This document shows positions 1-37,523 of a stretch of 64,000 nt of DNA, one piece after another. Position 1 is the stretch's first letter. Every line of letters starts with the position of its first letter. Both the position numbers and the translations under genes were made by a program. The notes beneath the pieces were generated by a model, which worked only from the letters and a program-made list of their open reading frames with translations, did no database searches and was not told where the DNA came from. The stretch lies in contig JAJQEC010000114.1 in the NCBI GenBank assembly GCA_021201815.1, positions 1 through 64,000 on the forward strand, written 5' to 3'. Origin of the DNA: Candidatus Azobacteroides sp. GTDB lineage: Bacteria; Bacteroidota; Bacteroidia; Bacteroidales; WRGA01.

Positions 1-28
1 AAACAAATTTGATTATTTACATAGTATC

Positions 29-120
29 TTCTTCGAGGGGAGAGTTGTCTGGTATCTCACCAACTATTCCCTTCGGAGAAGGGAAGTACCTTTTGACTTC
101 GTCAAAAGGGGTAGGGTTGG
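29..120. repeat. Dispersed double-hairpin repeat, locus 1
   Basis: Non-coding. Two adjacent perfect hairpins are visible: TTCCCTTC/GAAGGGAA at 67-85 and CCTTTTGAC/GTCAAAAGG at 89-109, followed by GGGGTAGGGTTGG. On the left (29-45) is half of a further hairpin of the same type, separated by a spacer containing GTCTGGTATCTCACC. The same building blocks occur at 37651-37704, 43122-43190 and 58426-58562, in both orientations. It is a genome-dispersed intergenic repeat, not a gene; its left part is shortened here. Confidence 0.8.
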
Positions 121-269
121 ACACAGGTTAATAATCCAATTTTGAAAACCCTCTCCTCAAGCTACAGAATAAGTTTAAAATCTGATTTGTTTGCCTGATT
201 TTAAGCTTATTTATCCAACAAAACGCCAGGAATTTATTACTTTCGCTTTTTGATATAAAATACTTGCCA

Positions 270-968
270 ATGAACTTTCGTTATAAAAATTTATTCTTTG
301 ATCTGGATGATACGTTATGGGATATTCATACCAATGGAAGAGAAGCCATGCTTGAAACTTTTCAGGAATACAAGCTGGCTGATTATTTCCCTTCTTTTGA
401 TTCCTTCTATGATATTTATATGGAATACAATGTCGAATTATGGGGAAAATACCGGAACAACGAGATAAAGAAAAACGAACTTGTCCTGCAACGTTTCTTA
501 TTACCCCTGCAGCAAGGAGGAATAGATGATGAAGCCTTCGCCTTAAGAATGAACGATGACTTTCTGGAAGCTACTACTACCAAAACAGCTTTAATTCCAC
601 ATGCAAAGGAAATACTGGACCATCTGAAACCCTTTTACCGGATGTTTATTATCTCAAATGGATTTTCTGAGGTCCAGTATAAGAAAATCAGAAATTCCGG
701 ACTGGAAGTTTATTTCGAAAAAATCATTCTTTCCGAAGATGTTCGGGCCAATAAGCCCAGTCCTGTTATTTTCGATCATGCGCTGAAGATGACAAATTCC
801 CGGAGAAACGAATCTATCATGATCGGAGACAGTTGGGAAGCAGATATTATCGGTGCTCATGATAGCGGCATAGACCAGATCTTTTTTAATAAAGAAGATA
901 AGCAGGAGATGGAATTCCTGCCTACCTATTGCATTACTTCCCTCAAGGAAATAAAAAATATTCTATGA
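270..968 (+). CDS. yjjG: YjjG family noncanonical pyrimidine nucleotidase (HAD superfamily)
   Basis: Predicted cytoplasmic HAD hydrolase that dephosphorylates nucleoside 5'-monophosphates, with a house-cleaning role towards noncanonical pyrimidine nucleotides in the YjjG family. Motif I is FFDLDDTLWD (Asp11 and Asp13), motif II is the Ser of MFIISNG, motif III the Lys of ANKPSP, and motif IV is IGDSWEADI. The helical cap domain lies between motifs I and II. At about 232 residues the length is normal for the family. An in-frame TTG at 264 lies just upstream, but the ATG at 270 starts directly before the conserved core and is preferred. It converges on miaB. The substrate is inferred from family only. 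Confidence 0.88.
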   Translation: MNFRYKNLFFDLDDTLWDIHTNGREAMLETFQEYKLADYFPSFDSFYDIYMEYNVELWGKYRNNEIKKNELVLQRFLLPLQQGGIDDEAFALRMNDDFLEATTTKTALIPHAKEILDHLKPFYRMFIISNGFSEVQYKKIRNSGLEVYFEKIILSEDVRANKPSPVIFDHALKMTNSRRNESIMIGDSWEADIIGAHDSGIDQIFFNKEDKQEMEFLPTYCITSLKEIKNIL

Positions 969-1019
969 CCCTGAGAAATAAATATTTGTAAAATGAATTT
1001 CTCGCTTAATTATCAACTC

Positions 1020-2420
1020 TTAGTTAAAAAACAGCAGTTTGTCTTTATCAATTGACATTACCCGTTCTCCAAGAAGAGTGGCGGAAGAAGCGTCTTTGAT
1101 TCTCACCTGAATATACTCCCCGATCCGGCTGTTTGCTTTATCGAAAACAACAACTTTATTCTGGGAAGTACGGCCGAACATTCTTTCTTTGGAACGTTTT
1201 GAATACCCTTCCACTAATACCTCAAATGTCTTTCCGATATCTTTCCGGTTACTTTCCGAAGACAATTGGTTCTGTAAATCTATAATCTCCTGAAGCCGCT
1301 TTACTTTTATTTCCTCAGGAATATCATCAGGTAGATTTTTAGAAGCATAGGTTCCGGGACGTTCCGAATATTTAAACATGAACGCACTATCAAAGCCAAC
1401 TTCACGCATCAAAGATAATGTTTCCCGGTGATCTTCTTCGGTTTCGGAATGAAAACCGGCAAAGACATCCGTAGATATACCACAATCAGGAATATATTTC
1501 CGGATGGCTGCAATCCGGTCCAGATACCATTCACGGGTATACCGACGATTCATCAGCTTTAGTATTTTAGAACTCCCTGACTGGACAGGTAAGTGAATAT
1601 GATTACAAATATTGGGATGCATAGCCACTGCCCGAATAATCTCGTCCGACATATCTTTGGGATGGGAAGTGGAAAAGCGTATCCGCATTTCGGGAGCAGC
1701 GTTTGCTACCATTTTCAGTAAGTCAGCAAAACCGATGGCCGTTCCATCTTTTTCAAAACAGTATGAATTTACATTCTGCCCAAGCAGTGTTACTTCTTTA
1801 AACCCTTTTTTCTGAAGATCCTTTAACTCATTCAGGATACTTTCCGGTTCCCGGCTACGTTCTCGTCCCCGTGTGTAAGGGACAATGCAATAAGAACAGA
1901 AATTATTACAACCTCTCATGATAGAGATAAAGCCGGAAATTCTGTTTCCTGCTACCCGGGTGGGAATTACATCTTTATAAGTTTCCGTCACAGACAGATC
2001 TACATTAATTGCTTTCTCCCTCTGCTCAACAGCTCCTACCAGATTAGGTAGATCCAGATAAGCATCCGGTCCTACCACCAAGTCTGCCCGGTAATTATGA
2101 ATAAGATCTTCCTTCACACGTTCGGCCATACAGCCAAGGACACCTACAATAAGTTGTTTTTTCTTTTTCCGTAATGTGTTAAAAAACTGTAACCGGTTTA
2201 GTACCTTCTGTTCTGCATTTTCACGGATAGAACACGTATTGACAAATACGGCATCAGCTTCTTCCAGTGCCTCCGTAAGCTCATAACCGGCCATTTGCAT
2301 GACTGAAGCGACTACTTCACTGTCTGCAACATTCATCTGACATCCATACGTTTCTATAAACAACTTTTTTGTTCCTTCCTCAGTTACGGATTTAAAGTCC
2401 GCTCCCGATTTTTCGTTCAT
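1020..2420 (-). CDS. miaB: tRNA-2-methylthio-N6-dimethylallyladenosine synthase
   Basis: Radical SAM methylthiotransferase that converts i6A37 to ms2i6A37 in tRNAs reading codons starting with U. Order of domains: N-terminal UPF0004 domain with three cluster-binding cysteines (Cys27 in ETYGCQMN, Cys63 in NTCSIRENA, Cys97 in LGCMAER), the radical SAM domain with Cys171, Cys175 and Cys178 in MRGCNNFCSYC, and a C-terminal TRAM domain. 466 residues is full length. The gene is divergent from a small membrane-anchored protein gene; the two starts are about 55 bp apart. Confidence 0.97.
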   Translation of the reverse strand: MNEKSGADFKSVTEEGTKKLFIETYGCQMNVADSEVVASVMQMAGYELTEALEEADAVFVNTCSIRENAEQKVLNRLQFFNTLRKKKKQLIVGVLGCMAERVKEDLIHNYRADLVVGPDAYLDLPNLVGAVEQREKAINVDLSVTETYKDVIPTRVAGNRISGFISIMRGCNNFCSYCIVPYTRGRERSREPESILNELKDLQKKGFKEVTLLGQNVNSYCFEKDGTAIGFADLLKMVANAAPEMRIRFSTSHPKDMSDEIIRAVAMHPNICNHIHLPVQSGSSKILKLMNRRYTREWYLDRIAAIRKYIPDCGISTDVFAGFHSETEEDHRETLSLMREVGFDSAFMFKYSERPGTYASKNLPDDIPEEIKVKRLQEIIDLQNQLSSESNRKDIGKTFEVLVEGYSKRSKERMFGRTSQNKVVVFDKANSRIGEYIQVRIKDASSATLLGERVMSIDKDKLLFFN

Positions 2421-2447
2421 TTTCTTTCTTTTTAAGTGGTAAATAAT

Positions 2448-2455
2448 TAAATTTG
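2448..2455 (+). promoter_or_regulatory. Bacteroidota -7 promoter element (TAAATTTG)
   Basis: Matches the Bacteroidota -7 consensus TAnnTTTG. Transcription would begin near 2462, so the ATG at 2477 is the first usable start of the downstream gene and the TTG at 2453 is excluded. Confidence 0.5.
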
Positions 2456-2476
2456 ATGCAAAATTACAAAAAAGGC

Positions 2477-2965
2477 ATGGAAAATTTAGGAGATTATTTA
2501 TATTTGATACTTATTGGCATAGCAGTTATTGCCTCTTTCATCAAACCCAAAAAGAAGGCATCGCCTTCGGCACCTTCCAACCCGATGCAGACAGAAGAGC
2601 GGGAACAACAGCAAATACCAGCTTATAATACGGGCAAAACACCTCCGCCAATACCAGAGAGAAAACCAAAAACCTGGCAGGAATTACTTCAATCATTAAA
2701 TGAAGCCCAACCGGCCCAACAAAGATCAACGTCTGTTTCGCAAAAGAGAGAGACAAAAGGCTTGACAAGTTCTCATTTTTCTGCGGAAAACAGGAAAGGA
2801 AAAAGAGCGTCAACGATTTCTTCAATCACAGAAAGAATACAAAGATTCTCTGACCATGACCAGTTATTGGGGCAAACCGAATCTTCCATTGATATTGATT
2901 TCAGTAACATCGATGAAATCAAAAAAGGAATTATTTATGCGGAAATTTTCAACCGGAAATATTAA
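2477..2965 (+). CDS. Membrane-anchored protein of unknown function
   Basis: About 162 residues. One N-terminal transmembrane segment (YLYLILIGIAVIASFI) is followed by a lysine-rich stop-transfer region and a long low-complexity, proline/glutamine/serine-rich segment; the last 30 residues are acidic (SSIDIDFSNIDEIKKGIIYAEIF) and end in NRKY. The topology suggests a short periplasmic end and a disordered cytoplasmic tail. The ATG at 2477 was chosen because a -7 promoter element lies at 2448-2455. No family with known function was recognised. The conserved-looking acidic C-terminus could be a binding motif (inference). Confidence 0.7.
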   Translation: MENLGDYLYLILIGIAVIASFIKPKKKASPSAPSNPMQTEEREQQQIPAYNTGKTPPPIPERKPKTWQELLQSLNEAQPAQQRSTSVSQKRETKGLTSSHFSAENRKGKRASTISSITERIQRFSDHDQLLGQTESSIDIDFSNIDEIKKGIIYAEIFNRKY

Positions 2966-2972
2966 TTAATTG

Positions 2973-3022
2973 GAAGAATCAAGAGCGGGTTTGTGACTTC
3001 TTCTCCCTTAGTCCTGATTCTT
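2973..3022. terminator. Possible bidirectional terminator hairpin
   Basis: AAGAATCA (from 2973) pairs with TGATTCTT (to about 3022) between two convergent genes, with a long AT-poor loop. The stem is only 8 bp and there is no strong T-run, so the call is weak. Confidence 0.3.
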
Positions 3023-3036
3023 AATTTTCGGATCTA

Positions 3037-5004
3037 TCATTCTACAATCATCCGGTTATCGATCAACTTTTGATTGTATTGCTGACGGAAGGCTTTAAAT
3101 TTTGACTCCAGTTTTTCTACGATTTCCGGATTCTTGTCTTTTATTTCATTCTTTAGTAAAAGGTCTTCATCATAATTATACAGACCTATCACATGGTCTT
3201 CTTCGGTAACTTGTAACACATAGTTATTCTCATATATCTGATAGAAACCGTTATAGTTAATGGCAAAACGCTCAATAGAATCATTCAGAGCATTTGACCC
3301 GAAAGCAAAAAAAGGCTTATCATAGTTCAGGTAGCTTAATACCGTAGGCATAATATCAATTTGCTGGGTAACCTGTGCCTCCACTACTTCCGGCTGCAAC
3401 ACACCGGTAGGATCAAAATAAATAATCGGAATAAGGAAAGGTCCGATGCTGGTTTTACTTTTTTCATAAGAAACCTGATTAGGATGATCTGCCGTAATGA
3501 CAAACAAGGTATTTTTATACCAGGGCATCTTAGAAACTGCGTCAAAGAAATTCCGGAGCGCCATATCCGTATAACCTACTGTCTGGTGAATCTGCTGGTC
3601 TCCCTTATCGAATTTACCTTCGTATTCCTTGGGAATGGCAAACGGATGGTGAGAAGTTGCCGTAAAAACAGCTCCGAAAAACGGTTCCGGTTTTTCATTT
3701 AGTACCCTTGCCATAAATTGCAGGAAAGGTTCATCCCAGATAGCCCACATTCCGTCAAAGTCCGCATCGTTATTATATTCTGTCTTCCCATAATAATGCG
3801 AGAAGCCTGACATACGGGCAAAAGAATCGAATCCCATGGAACCATTCGGTGCTCCATGAAAAAAAGAAGTATCATATCCTTTTTCCTTCAACAGAGCAGC
3901 TAATCCTTTAATAGAATTATTCGCATACACCGATAATACATACGGATCCGGAAAGGAGGGAATACTGGCCAATACCGATGGCATAGCATCAATCGATTTG
4001 AGCCCGTTTCCAAAAGAATGTTTAAAAGTATAACAATGAGTAAGAAGGGAATCCAGAAAAGGCGTATATCCCTTGTAATTCCCATTATCCAGGTCTTTAT
4101 TGAAAAAGCTGATGTATTCCTTGCTCAGGCTTTCCACAATAAGGATCACGACATTTTTATCTACAAAAGCGGTAGAATCATTTGTTACAGGATAATGTTC
4201 AGGAGTATAAATACGATCTAATTCTTCTTCGGTAAAATAATTCAGTCTTTTGTAATTGGACCGTTTCAACGTCCTATAAATGGAAAAAGGCGTATTCAGT
4301 ACAATTCCTATTTCCGCCGGCTTATTTACATATACGGCAGCATTACTGATGGTGATGGGACGGGTACTATGCGCAAAACCGCCTCTTACTCCTCCGACAA
4401 ATAAAATAATCCCAAGTGCCATAATTACTATGCTAATGATATAAAAGCCTGCATTATGGGCAATAATGGTAGGACGGACTTTGATAAGGTTATAACACCA
4501 TATCATCAAAACAACAAATACAACAAATATTAAAAGCAAATACCAGAATTCAGCCAGAAATTCCCCCATCAAAGAGAAATTTCCTTTGTCATTAGCAAAT
4601 TCCTGAAAAACCGACCAAGTTGTTCTTTTATTGGTAAAACGGAAGTAAGCAACATCGACCAGATTAAACGCCAGAACAATAGAATTGGTAATGCAAAAAA
4701 TCCATTTCAGGACTTTCTGGTAACTGGCCTTATAACGAAAGCGAAAAGGCAACAGGTTTCCAAGAATAAACAGGGAATTGGTATACAGCACTGCAACCAG
4801 ATCAAATTTTACTCCTCCTGCCATCAGATGCAGGAAATGAGAAAAAGTCATTTCAGGATACAAATCCATATTAAAAAGGAAGAATACGATTCGGCATAAT
4901 GTAAATAGCACCATTATAAATATCAACCGGACCAGTAGTGCCATATAGATGTTTCCTAAAAAAACGCTTAACTTTCTTTCCTTCATTTTACTTTTCCAAT
5001 TCAA
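3037..5004 (-). CDS. LTA synthase family phosphatase/sulfatase-fold membrane enzyme
   Basis: 655 residues in the LtaS/OpgB-like branch of the alkaline phosphatase superfamily. Such enzymes transfer phosphoglycerol or phosphoethanolamine from lipids to envelope glycans; the acceptor here is unknown. Five hydrophobic segments occupy residues ~15-215, then a periplasmic sulfatase fold: metal-ligand Glu291 in ILIVESLS, probable nucleophile Ser337 in GNGLKSIDAMPS (Thr in Gram-positive LtaS), His452/His453 in TATSHHPF, and Asp506-His507 in ITADHPNQ. The organism is Gram-negative by its other genes, so true lipoteichoic acid is not expected; modification of a periplasmic glucan or lipid A-type acceptor is more likely (inference). 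Confidence 0.88.
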   Translation of the reverse strand: MNWKSKMKERKLSVFLGNIYMALLVRLIFIMVLFTLCRIVFFLFNMDLYPEMTFSHFLHLMAGGVKFDLVAVLYTNSLFILGNLLPFRFRYKASYQKVLKWIFCITNSIVLAFNLVDVAYFRFTNKRTTWSVFQEFANDKGNFSLMGEFLAEFWYLLLIFVVFVVLMIWCYNLIKVRPTIIAHNAGFYIISIVIMALGIILFVGGVRGGFAHSTRPITISNAAVYVNKPAEIGIVLNTPFSIYRTLKRSNYKRLNYFTEEELDRIYTPEHYPVTNDSTAFVDKNVVILIVESLSKEYISFFNKDLDNGNYKGYTPFLDSLLTHCYTFKHSFGNGLKSIDAMPSVLASIPSFPDPYVLSVYANNSIKGLAALLKEKGYDTSFFHGAPNGSMGFDSFARMSGFSHYYGKTEYNNDADFDGMWAIWDEPFLQFMARVLNEKPEPFFGAVFTATSHHPFAIPKEYEGKFDKGDQQIHQTVGYTDMALRNFFDAVSKMPWYKNTLFVITADHPNQVSYEKSKTSIGPFLIPIIYFDPTGVLQPEVVEAQVTQQIDIMPTVLSYLNYDKPFFAFGSNALNDSIERFAINYNGFYQIYENNYVLQVTEEDHVIGLYNYDEDLLLKNEIKDKNPEIVEKLESKFKAFRQQYNQKLIDNRMIVE

Positions 5005-32561: not shown

Positions 32562-35500
32562 ATGAAAAAAAATCTCTTATGGTTGTTTTTTTTGTGGCTT
32601 TTCGCTGTTACATCCGTATATGGTGTAACATTTAATGTCACAGTTCCGGAAGGAACAAAGGTATGTTACGTGGTAGGAAATTTCAATGAGTGGAGTGTGA
32701 GCACTGCCCGGGAAATGGAAAAAATAAGTAAAACCCATTTCAGACTGGATGCTCCTGATATTTCCGGTTCTGAAATCGCTTATAAATATATCTGTAAGCA
32801 GGACTGGGATTATGTAGAAGAGACTGAAAGCGGTGGATATGTAGATAACAGAGAAACAGTAACTGCAATGGATGTGGTAGGTAGCTGGAAAAATTCCTAC
32901 AATCCTTACCTGACAACGATAGAGCCAACCACTTCTACATTGCCTCATAATATTCAGAAAAAAAAGATAAAGATTCTTGTTCCGGATGACTATGAGGATA
33001 ATCCTGATAAATATTATCCGGTTATATACATTCATGGAGTAAACCAGAGCCAATATCACAGAAGTTCCAGCGATTACTTCAGAGAAGATTTTTTTGATAC
33101 TAATTCCTGGAATCTTTCCGGATTCATGGAAGATATGGAAGAAGCCGGTAAAGAAAGCAGCATTCTTGTCGGAATATATGGCTATGTCGGTGAATTTACG
33201 CCATGGGAAAATCCGGAATTCCTGGGGTCAGGAGCTACCGACCAATACCTTAATTTTTTCATCAATGAATTAATGCCTCTTATAGAAAAGGACTACAGGG
33301 TATCGAAAGACCGGGAAAATACGATTCTAATGGGTGCTGATCTGGGAGGGCTATTTTCATATTACGCCGCCCTTGCGCATCCTGAAAAATTCGGAAAAGC
33401 CGGCATTTTCTCGCCTTCGTTCTGGATCAATAAATCAGAATTGGAAACATATATCAACCAATGGAATAAAACATATGACCAGCAATTGTTCTTCGGTGTA
33501 GGAGGACTGGAAGGTATCGAATATACAGAAAACACGGAATTATTTTATAACCTGACAAAAGCACGGGGATTCAGCGACGAAAACATCCGGTTTAAAGTCT
33601 ACCCGGCTGGTAAACACAAGGAAGTATTCTGGAAAAATCACTTCCGGGATGCCTATTTATACTTTATTCATCAGGAACTACCGGCACAATACCAGTATAT
33701 GACTCATTCCGACGAAAATGGGATAACTTGTGAAGGAAACCGTCTTTTCGAACCTGTCGGTTATTATCCTTCCGGTACAGGAACACCGGAAGAGGCGGTG
33801 GTATATATAAATGAGATTCCGCTGGATTTCCTTCCGGCAGGAGAAACTTCTAAAAATTACAACTGGGGGATCAACATGTCTGCGGACTGTACAGGGAACG
33901 AACTGGTACATGAGCAAATCCAGCCCATCGCATTGAGTAACACCAGAACTTCCGAATCCTGGTCTCGCATTGTTATCGGGGAAGGAAATACGATAAGTTG
34001 CACCCAGGTATCTCCTTATCATTTTAAAGTGAGAACAGGAAATCTTTCCTCAACGGACCAGCTTATGGAGCTTGCCGAAGGAAATCCGTCTTATGTACTT
34101 GTGAAAGAAGTCAACTTCGATTCCGATAAAACGTTCCACATTCGTTACGGTAATATAAACTCAGGATCGGACATGGGATCACTTACCGATGAAATAACTG
34201 TGCCTGCTAATTGTGCAAAAGCAAAAATTACGTATTGTTTCAAAACGAACGAGATCAGTATTGAGGTATTGGAAGAAAGTTATCCGGAAAAAACATATAT
34301 CCTGACTGCCGGTACTTCGGCAAGTGATATGAAATGTAATGAAGAGGATATGCTGGAAAAAATAACCTATTATCCGACAGGAGCGGAGGAATCTGCCGTA
34401 GAAGCCCAAGTGCTTATAAAAAATGTTTCCAAAGATATTAAAAGCAATTATTACTGGAACCTGATCATAGGAGATGATTGTTCGGCTACTGATACTTATT
34501 ACAGCTCCACACAATCAGTCGGATTTAAAAGCTCAAAAACGACAGATTCCTGGATACGATTTGTCATGCGCGGAAACGAATTAGAGAAGATCGATACTTC
34601 TTCCGAAGGTTTTAAAATTCATCACGGAAGTAATACGATCAACATGACGAAAAGTAACAGTTCGACAGGGGAAGATGCTTTCACTGTTTCGGCAGATGTA
34701 GAATTCCCGAGTAGCAACAAAATGTTTAATATCCATTACGGCAGTATCAATTCTCAAAGTCCGATGGGTGCACTTACAGGATACCATCAGGTAAGTGATA
34801 ATTGCCTGAAGGCAAGGATATCCTTCTCTCTGAAAACAAATAAAGTAAGCATTACAGAACTGGAGTGGGGCGAACCGGCAGGCAATATTCTTTCTTATTT
34901 CCAGGCAACACCGGCATTCTGTAAAGTAGGAACTCCCGTAACCATAAAAGCAAAATTAGCAAATCCGGAAAATTACAGCGTAACTTTTGATGTTTCCTTT
35001 ACATACGGAACAGCCACAAGTTATCCTGCTACAAGAAATGAAGCCGGAGAATTCGTACTGGAACTGACAGATGTTAAATTAGGAATCTATCATGTCTCTA
35101 TGAAAGCAACACAAGGAAACAATACCATTTTCGATTTCCCGGTTATCGCCATTAAAGTTCCTTATGAAAATACTTATGAAGATACCGACATGGCTGTAAC
35201 GGTAAATGCATACAAAGATATAAACTGGGAAATTATCGGAAAATATAAAGGCAATTTCCACACCCATACTTCCCAGTCATTCGATGCACGAAGCATGTCT
35301 CCGGATTATGTAGTGGACCGGTATCACTCAAAAGGGTATCAGATTCTTGCCATAACCGATCATGACGATAATACATATCCATGGACAATGTTCAATTCAT
35401 TTGACCCGGATATAGAAATCCGGAATCCGGAAGAATTGGGCATGCTTGCTTTCCCTGCTATCGAATTAAGCAAAGATATCCGAAATAACTGGAGTGAAAC

Positions 35501-36494
35501 AGGAGGTGGAGAATACAATCACCACAACGACTTTTTTACCGGAAGACGAGGCCAGGAATTCCTTACCCTGGAAGAGTCCTATGCCTATACGCAGGAATTA
35601 GGAGGGTTACAATTAATTAACCATCCGGGACAATACTGGAAGTTACAAAATGACTATAGCAAAGGAGGAAAAGATTCCCCGGACTGGCATGCCAATAATT
35701 TCAGGAAATACAGGAGTTTAATCGGTCTGGAAGTATATAATCAGGGAGACAAATGGGTAAATGACCGGATTCTCTGGGACCAGATTCTTGACAGGACAAT
35801 GCCTGAAACACCGGTATGGGGATATTCCAATGATGATTCACATAATGACGGCCACCATTTCCGTAACTACCAGTTTATGTTGATGGAAGAATTGTCTATT
35901 CCGGCATTAAAAAAGGCAATGAAAAACGGCAGTACTTATTTTTCCTACGAACCGGGGGGAAGCGGAGAAGCATTAGCGCCAAGAATAAACAATGTGATTG
36001 TGGATGAAAATAGGAAAACAATTACGATTGATACGCCTGCTGATGAAATATACTGGATATGCAGTACGGATATATCCGGTGGAGCTACTACCCGGAAGAG
36101 TACGGTGATAGGATACGGAAAAACATTTTCCTACGAAGGTTTCCAGGGTCCGTATGTACGTGCATTTATCAAAAATGAATACGGAGAAACCTGTACCCAA
36201 CCTTTCGGATTCGGAGAGGACAATGGACAATCAACAAACAATACACCTTCATCGGATAAAGGTATGATAACTGTTTACCCGAACCCGACAAAAGGAATCG
36301 TAAAAATCCAGGCAAACCGGGGAATCGGAAATATCCTGATTGTTAACTTTCTGGGACAGGTTGTAAAAACACTGGACGGTAAAGAGGAAAGCATCACAGA
36401 AATCGACCTGCAGGAACTTCCGAATGGGGCTTACATTGCTAAAATCAATGTAGAAGGATTTGTATATAATCACACGGTTATCATCAGTAAATAA
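32562..36494 (+). CDS. Large secreted multidomain protein: CBM-like, esterase-fold, PHP phosphoesterase, T9SS sorting domain
   Basis: 1310 residues. Signal peptide (to Gly21); CBM48/CBM20-like beta domain (~22-110; YVVGNFNEWS); alpha/beta-hydrolase of the EstD/Fes type (~130-375) whose elbow reads MGADLGG, i.e. Asp259 where the nucleophile Ser should be, so probably non-catalytic; two homologous ~195-residue repeats (~376-570 and ~571-768, each with HIRYG(S/N)IN-type and KTNxxSI motifs); a beta domain (~775-870); a PHP domain (~895-1110) with His900, His902, Asp933-His934-Asp935, His1021, Asp1092 and His1094 placed as metal ligands; and a type A T9SS tail (~1237-1310; VYPNPTKGIVKI, NGAYIAKI). 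Predicted cell-surface or secreted phosphoesterase that binds glycan. No direct precedent is recalled. Confidence 0.8.
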   Translation: MKKNLLWLFFLWLFAVTSVYGVTFNVTVPEGTKVCYVVGNFNEWSVSTAREMEKISKTHFRLDAPDISGSEIAYKYICKQDWDYVEETESGGYVDNRETVTAMDVVGSWKNSYNPYLTTIEPTTSTLPHNIQKKKIKILVPDDYEDNPDKYYPVIYIHGVNQSQYHRSSSDYFREDFFDTNSWNLSGFMEDMEEAGKESSILVGIYGYVGEFTPWENPEFLGSGATDQYLNFFINELMPLIEKDYRVSKDRENTILMGADLGGLFSYYAALAHPEKFGKAGIFSPSFWINKSELETYINQWNKTYDQQLFFGVGGLEGIEYTENTELFYNLTKARGFSDENIRFKVYPAGKHKEVFWKNHFRDAYLYFIHQELPAQYQYMTHSDENGITCEGNRLFEPVGYYPSGTGTPEEAVVYINEIPLDFLPAGETSKNYNWGINMSADCTGNELVHEQIQPIALSNTRTSESWSRIVIGEGNTISCTQVSPYHFKVRTGNLSSTDQLMELAEGNPSYVLVKEVNFDSDKTFHIRYGNINSGSDMGSLTDEITVPANCAKAKITYCFKTNEISIEVLEESYPEKTYILTAGTSASDMKCNEEDMLEKITYYPTGAEESAVEAQVLIKNVSKDIKSNYYWNLIIGDDCSATDTYYSSTQSVGFKSSKTTDSWIRFVMRGNELEKIDTSSEGFKIHHGSNTINMTKSNSSTGEDAFTVSADVEFPSSNKMFNIHYGSINSQSPMGALTGYHQVSDNCLKARISFSLKTNKVSITELEWGEPAGNILSYFQATPAFCKVGTPVTIKAKLANPENYSVTFDVSFTYGTATSYPATRNEAGEFVLELTDVKLGIYHVSMKATQGNNTIFDFPVIAIKVPYENTYEDTDMAVTVNAYKDINWEIIGKYKGNFHTHTSQSFDARSMSPDYVVDRYHSKGYQILAITDHDDNTYPWTMFNSFDPDIEIRNPEELGMLAFPAIELSKDIRNNWSETGGGEYNHHNDFFTGRRGQEFLTLEESYAYTQELGGLQLINHPGQYWKLQNDYSKGGKDSPDWHANNFRKYRSLIGLEVYNQGDKWVNDRILWDQILDRTMPETPVWGYSNDDSHNDGHHFRNYQFMLMEELSIPALKKAMKNGSTYFSYEPGGSGEALAPRINNVIVDENRKTITIDTPADEIYWICSTDISGGATTRKSTVIGYGKTFSYEGFQGPYVRAFIKNEYGETCTQPFGFGEDNGQSTNNTPSSDKGMITVYPNPTKGIVKIQANRGIGNILIVNFLGQVVKTLDGKEESITEIDLQELPNGAYIAKINVEGFVYNHTVIISK

Positions 36495-36500
36495 CAAATG

Positions 36501-36528
36501 CCGGGAATCTTTATTGTAAGATTCCCGG
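36501..36528 (+). terminator. Hairpin terminator
   Basis: CCGGGAATCTT (36501-36511) pairs perfectly with AAGATTCCCGG (36518-36528), six nt after the stop codon region of the 1310-residue gene. Confidence 0.6.
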
Positions 36529-36722: not shown

Positions 36723-37523
36723 ATGAAAAATTTTATTCTTCTTTTGTTGCTTTGTTCACTATTTACAGCAAATGTTTTTTCCCAAAGTTCTTCCGGATAC
36801 GGACCATTTGCAATTTCTATCGCTGCCGATGGAACAGAATATCTCTACCGGTTAGATGACACAAGTGCTACTTCAGCACTCTACAGTGATTTTGTAGGTA
36901 ATGACCCAATAGATGGCGTGGATTTTGGCAAAGTGAATTCCCTGGTTTTAACCCACGGAATAGCAGTTAGCTGGGTAAATACTCCTAATTTTTTTAATGA
37001 AGAATCTCTGGCCATTCTTTTCAGGTATTTTCCTGCAGAAGAAAATGAACCGGAGGAAGAAGAAGGCTGGGAGACAATTAGCTTACCAAACCGGACAAAC
37101 CGGGGAGGAAGCAGTAATAATAACTACCGGTATGAAAATGAAGATATAAACATCAATATTATTCCTCTTTTAAATAACAAGCACGGTAATTATAAGCTGC
37201 AATTCAAAAGAAGCCTGACCCATTTTTATGATAACGGGAATTCTTCTTATTCAAGACCTGACCCCAACAGCGTTACGACAGCAACTTTTATGTTTGATTA
37301 TTCTACTTCATTAGTTACTAACAAGGAAAACAATATTCGGATTACAAGCAGAAAAGAAACTATTCGAGTACAATCAGCAGAAAATACGGATATTTCTTTG
37401 TATACGGTTACCGGAAAATTACTGGAAGAAAAACAAGGAGAAGATGTGTCATTCACCAATCTTTCAGTAGGAATTTACCTGGTAAAAACAGATAAAAAAG
37501 TTTATAAAGCAATAGTGAAATAG
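36723..37523 (+). CDS. Secreted protein with T9SS-like C-terminal domain, unknown function
   Basis: 266 residues. Signal peptide MKNFILLLLLCSLFTANVFSQ, a ~175-residue beta-rich domain of unknown family with an acidic, then Asn/Arg-rich loop (EENEPEEEEGW, NRGGSSNNNYRYENED), and a C-terminal ~60 residues resembling a T9SS type A sorting domain (IRVQSAENTDISLYTVTGKLLEE ... NLSVGIYLVKTDKKVYKAIVK). The YPNP motif typical of such tails is not present, so sorting is inferred from the ISLYTVTGK/GIYLVK pattern. Gene and upstream neighbour may form a surface system. Confidence 0.65.
   Translation: MKNFILLLLLCSLFTANVFSQSSSGYGPFAISIAADGTEYLYRLDDTSATSALYSDFVGNDPIDGVDFGKVNSLVLTHGIAVSWVNTPNFFNEESLAILFRYFPAEENEPEEEEGWETISLPNRTNRGGSSNNNYRYENEDININIIPLLNNKHGNYKLQFKRSLTHFYDNGNSSYSRPDPNSVTTATFMFDYSTSLVTNKENNIRITSRKETIRVQSAENTDISLYTVTGKLLEEKQGEDVSFTNLSVGIYLVKTDKKVYKAIVK

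Follow-up and report, generated by a model that had tools for sequence, protein, structure and literature searches.

Esterases that join a CBM-like domain to a PF00756 fold occur in the same bacterial order as the genome examined here. These proteins (about 470 aa; L012, L017) share with the protein described below both the CBM-like domain and the esterase fold that comes after it, and they keep the Glu and His; many of them also end in a T9SS-type tail. They also possess the Ser and the motifs HDGQN, GEW..DE and N-R, all of which are lost in our protein, and they are devoid of its repeats and its PHP domain. Solved relatives of the esterase domain are 6mot/6mou and the ferulic acid esterases 5cxu and 7b5v. 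An Asp nucleophile at the elbow is found in haloalkane dehalogenases (D124 and D108) and in an epoxide hydrolase (D192) (PMC7034887). These enzymes combine Asp at the elbow with a His base and an acid partner, which matches the residue pattern of our protein, but they belong to different alpha/beta-hydrolase families and have cap domains.

On the PHP side, the structure 3e38 shares the PHP fold, the pattern HxH...D, TEH, E, NHPG and DxH, and a further C-terminal domain after PHP, but it is remote in sequence and lacks the other modules of our protein. CehA acts as a carbamate esterase (PMC8292978). Sb-PDE from Sphingobium sp. TCM1 is a member of the PHP superfamily that has a signal peptide, contains 2.1 Zn per protein and acts both as a phosphodiesterase and as a phosphomonoesterase; its mature form is a single domain of 413 aa, and its Sec-dependent export has been inferred (PMC5460133). 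Sb-PDE provides a precedent for an exported PHP hydrolase, likened here by description and not by sequence, and is single-domain, unlike our protein. A search of the literature returned no report on secreted PHP proteins with T9SS in Bacteroidota, nor on pseudo-esterases in PF00756.

In this work we focused on an open reading frame of 1310 aa (32562-36494, + strand), which runs uninterrupted from ATG to stop in the window, i.e. the whole stretch of 64,000 nucleotides that was analyzed. Starting at the N-terminus, a signal peptide is followed by a CBM20/AMPK-CBM-like domain and a PF00756 esterase domain; two repeats and an Ig-like domain lead on to a PHP domain, which carries a C-terminal extension, and the protein closes with a T9SS type A tail (Table 1). 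Its best explanation, to which we assign a probability of roughly 0.6, is that the PHP domain is an enzyme and the remaining modules serve targeting and spacing. The protein would be a multidomain hydrolase exported by the T9SS and either attached to the surface or released. Its working module would be the C-terminal PHP domain, which would use two or three metal ions to hydrolyse an extracellular substrate at a phosphoester or other activated ester bond, while the CBM-like, Ser-less esterase-derived, repeat and Ig-like modules would have non-catalytic roles. Metal-dependent catalysis by PHP, the binding role of the esterase-like domain and the surface location are inferred.

Table 1. Features of the 1310-aa open reading frame (coordinates are positions in the window)
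Feature	Position	Residues	Strand	Evidence
Sec-type signal peptide MKKNLLWLFFLWLFAVTSVYG	32562..32624	1-21	+	Read by eye; equivalent N-terminus in four orthologues
CBM20/AMPK-CBM-like (starch/glycogen-binding-like) domain	32625..32921	~22-120	+	Pfam, below cut-off
Esterase-like alpha/beta-hydrolase domain (PF00756)	32958..33653	133-364	+	Pfam E 7e-16; phmmer 6mot/6mou E 3e-11
Asp260 codon, nucleophile elbow GADLGG	33339..33341	260	+	Alignment with orthologues and Ser-type relatives
Glu317 codon, catalytic-acid position	33510..33512	317	+	Invariant in Ser-type and Asp-type proteins
His352 codon, catalytic-base position	33615..33617	352	+	Invariant in Ser-type and Asp-type proteins
Repeat 1, family unknown, predicted all-beta	33687..34274	376-571	+	Self-comparison; AlphaFold2 secondary structure, pLDDT 49
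Repeat 2, 31% identical to repeat 1	34290..34877	577-772	+	BLASTP E 1e-29
Ig/PKD-like domain	34884..35165	~775-868	+	PKD E 0.0015, Big_3_5 E 0.002, below cut-offs
Putative PHP metallohydrolase domain	35244..35999	895-1146	+	NCBIfam and profile matches, ligand alignment
Beta-rich C-terminal extension of PHP module	35982..36215	~1141-1218	+	Also in free-standing PHP relatives; strands in low-confidence model
T9SS type A sorting tail	36273..36485	1238-1308	+	Por_Secre_tail at 1238-1307, E 1e-11 (Pfam); TIGR04183

When the whole protein was used as the query against 295 genomes, the full fusion was not found in any other genome. A profile of the two repeats retrieved four full-length orthologues of 1293 to 1308 residues with the same domain order, from four genomes of another family (f22) of the same order. 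The architecture is therefore not an assembly artefact, and the search for the same domain order elsewhere, suggested by the sequence-only reading, was successful. The sample of orthologues comprises five proteins including that of the window, and four of them come from one genus. Identity between the window protein and the f22 proteins is 61-64% in PHP, 43-51% in the CBM, 31-35% in the esterase domain, 30-34% in the repeats and 20-31% in the tail; apart from the CBM, all modules ahead of PHP are 30-41% identical. The difference between PHP (61-64%) and the esterase domain (31-35%) makes PHP the most constrained module. Among the f22 orthologues dS is near saturation, which renders dN/dS unreliable, so that mainly dN was compared. 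It was lowest in PHP in most of the six pairs (about five), ranging from 0.037 to 0.136 as against 0.127 to 0.251 in the esterase domain; the exceptions are L057-L059, where the CBM falls below PHP, and L058-L059, where it is close or also lower.

Export by the T9SS is credible, since SprA is present in the genome (2777 bits), as are at least 150 sorting tails of type A that exceed the family cut-off (150 of 222 candidates scored). On the basis of T9SS and SprA, the order is judged to be Bacteroidota-type. The tail of the protein itself reaches 33.4 bits with TIGR04183 against a cut-off of 23, and the proposal that a T9SS tail exports the whole protein is borne out to this extent, export being predicted from these matches. 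At least 150 type A tails in a genome of 4.2 Mb looks like an unusually large set of T9SS cargo. A T9SS-tailed frame of 24,366 residues (G000:C66:7044-80141) was discarded, as it arises from a run of 72,000 masked bases (N).

The N-terminal domain resembles AMPK1_CBM (E 0.015) and CBM_20 (E 0.047) in Pfam, both below cut-off, and its pairing with the esterase domain is also present in the Ser-type relatives. Multi-copy arrays of the same CBM-like domain were observed in L055 of G232 (positions 1406-4000 of the locus; an exported protein of 864 aa) and in L044 of G144, same genus (positions 1839-3047 of the locus), which suggests that this module was amplified as a binding array in these lineages.

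The esterase domain is recognized by PF00756 with 59.2 bits against a cut-off of 22 (60.3 bits in the orthologue L053). At its elbow the window protein reads MGADLGG, and all five orthologues have G[AG]D[LKM]GG with Asp in the place of Ser. The sequence-only reading had noticed this exchange correctly and was off by one in its numbering, the Asp being residue 260 and not 259. Ser occupies the elbow (GSS[LM]G[GA]) in 24 of 24 Ser-type relatives sampled from the order, and in 22 of 22 after trimming; this set consists of the best matches in 295 genomes, and the counts apply to it rather than to PF00756 elsewhere. Glu317 and His352 are shared without exception by the five orthologues and the 22 Ser-type relatives of the trimmed set, so that of the residues needed by a PF00756 Ser esterase the acid and the His base are present and the Ser nucleophile is missing. 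In alignments to 6mot and to active relatives the elbow lies in its usual place, and a Ser nucleophile elsewhere in the esterase fold finds no support there. Since every one of the five known copies has Asp, the exchange is fixed and no accident.

We further compared the evolution of this domain in the two groups. Sixty-six alignment columns are conserved in at least 90% of the Ser-type relatives, and the Asp group retains a mean of 36 of them, often with an invariant residue of its own where the column has changed. The lost motifs cluster, comprising the oxyanion loop HDGQN, GEW..DE and N-R; the oxyanion loop, which follows strand 3, has become [HT]GV..Q, with Asp159 replaced by Gly. In 93% of 231 pairs of Ser-type proteins, which are non-independent, conservation is higher in the esterase domain than in the CBM (median difference +12.6 points). 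When the window protein is paired with its orthologues the order is reversed, and the esterase domain falls 5 to 14 points below the CBM. In a tree with the sampled Ser-type rows the Asp group is monophyletic (support 100/97), and the Asp-type branches are long (2.2 and 3.4, where the median for end branches is 0.31). This evolution fits a loss or a change of the original chemistry. A dead esterase that only binds is the likeliest reading of the domain, as the sequence-only reading had presumed; its fast evolution and the lost oxyanion and substrate motifs speak for that view, and the invariance of Asp260, Glu317 and His352 in all five orthologues, which exceeds what a mere scaffold would call for, speaks against it.

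Because Asp, Glu and His all survive, a binding module and an enzyme with an Asp nucleophile are not distinguished by these data. The domain could still be a hydrolase, with Asp260 as nucleophile, Glu317 as acid and His352 as base, in a bifunctional protein whose PHP domain acts on the same substrate. G-[AG]-D-x-G-G, Glu and His have been kept in five orthologues in spite of a cross-family identity of 33-35% in this domain, and the replaced pocket residues G159, V160, Y165, D171, S182, G207 and M238 are conserved inside the Asp group, which suggests a new pocket rather than decay. Epoxide hydrolase 2 was among the phmmer matches over residues 253-340, with non-significant E values of 0.07-0.26, and an Asp nucleophile at the elbow is standard in two alpha/beta-hydrolase families (PMC7034887). 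However, the Asp-type domain evolves faster than its Ser-type relatives, and neither a cap domain nor halide- or epoxide-binding residues were identified in it. We consider this alternative unlikely. To our knowledge, there is no precedent for an Asp nucleophile within PF00756. The corresponding history, in which a PF00756 lineage would have exchanged its Ser nucleophile for Asp, rebuilt its oxyanion pocket and become joined, by way of the unique repeats, to an exported PHP metallohydrolase to give a bifunctional surface enzyme, appears distinctly unlikely.

The long branches and low identity of the Asp domain, together with the existence of PHP relatives without such a domain, are also what would be expected if it were a purely structural remnant of the fusion that binds no ligand, with PHP working alone. 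Yet the domain has been kept in five of five orthologues with its triad positions invariant, and its dN is well under dS (dN/dS of 0.08-0.17 where dS is unsaturated), and we regard such a remnant as quite improbable.

The two repeats, described from the sequence alone as some 195 residues long and of unknown family, are indeed related to each other (31% identical across 190 residues; E 1e-29 in BLASTP), and comparison with Pfam and PDB gave nothing convincing. Searches of 395 genomes from across the phylum yielded no relative, and within the order the repeats are confined, in the genomes searched, to the five orthologues. A further match in G133 (E 0.007) was rejected as unconvincing. The AlphaFold2 model of the repeats, from two rows, had a pLDDT of 49, and they are probably all-beta according to this prediction.

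The Pfam match of the PHP module remains at 17.7 bits, under the cut-off of 26.4. The module is matched best by the NCBIfam CehA/McbA metallohydrolase model NF038032, over 250 residues (E 1e-11); with 44.6 bits, where the NCBI rule demands 80, it stays outside CehA/McbA; for the orthologue L053 this model was not listed at E 0.001. A profile built from the domain and its relatives matched the solved PHP proteins 3e38 (E 1e-13), 2anu (3e-12), 7ug9, 9etk and 2yb1. The motif set of the superfamily (HxH..D, [TD/TE]H, E, HPG, DxH) is complete in the window protein, and the candidate metal ligands H900, H902, D908, H934, E968, H1021, D1092 and H1094 are the same in every one of the eight aligned members, which come from Bacteroidota-type genomes, clostridial MAGs and one Atribacteria MAG. 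The claim that PHP keeps its visible metal ligands is supported. A further candidate, H987, is His in most relatives and Asp or Asn in two. An AlphaFold2 model of the module from six sequences had a mean pLDDT of 52.6, and a fold search with it gave no match at E <= 0.001.

In other genomes the PHP module occurs without the esterase part, in lipoprotein-like proteins (L009, L013) and in proteins with T9SS-type tails (L008, L010). Its presence without that part in other exported proteins indicates a self-sufficient module. In proteins from clostridial MAGs (L038, L039, L040, L041) it was seen by eye together with S-layer-homology and LamG-like parts. The module appears to form an independent exported family and is most likely the catalytic part of the protein. 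The many binding-type modules could instead belong to an adhesin or binding protein with a non-catalytic PHP domain, but none of the eight core ligand positions varies among eight relatives from Bacteroidota-type, clostridial and Atribacteria contigs and PHP is under the strongest constraint in the protein, which makes this reading highly improbable. Only one further strong PF02811 match was found in the window genome, a 1231-aa open frame that is, judged by its length, probably the DnaE polymerase alpha subunit.

As to the substrate of a catalytic PHP domain, the sequence-only reading had envisaged a novel activity at the surface, with phosphorylated glycan as a possible target. Nothing supports phosphate or glycan beyond the sub-cut-off resemblance to CBM_20 and AMPK1_CBM, and secreted PHP enzymes are already known (Sb-PDE, PMC5460133). 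Since Sb-PDE cleaves phosphodiesters and monoesters and CehA carbamates, there is no ground for presuming either phosphate or glycan. The genes around the window protein (named by eye: an rsgA-like gene precedes it, and a gene for a small T9SS-tailed protein and one resembling queA follow) and around L053 and L054 are unrelated housekeeping genes that give no hint of a substrate or pathway. The 266-aa protein encoded directly downstream (36723-37523) has a weak T9SS tail, is of unknown family and is a possible partner; a terminator-like palindrome (36501-36528) separates it from the main open reading frame.

The Asp fixed across two families, with the rest of the triad kept, offers a clean natural test between an Asp-nucleophile hydrolase and a binding module. 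The repeats define a new domain family, which in the genomes searched occurs in this architecture only, and the PHP branch would represent an uncharacterised exported group that extends across several phyla.
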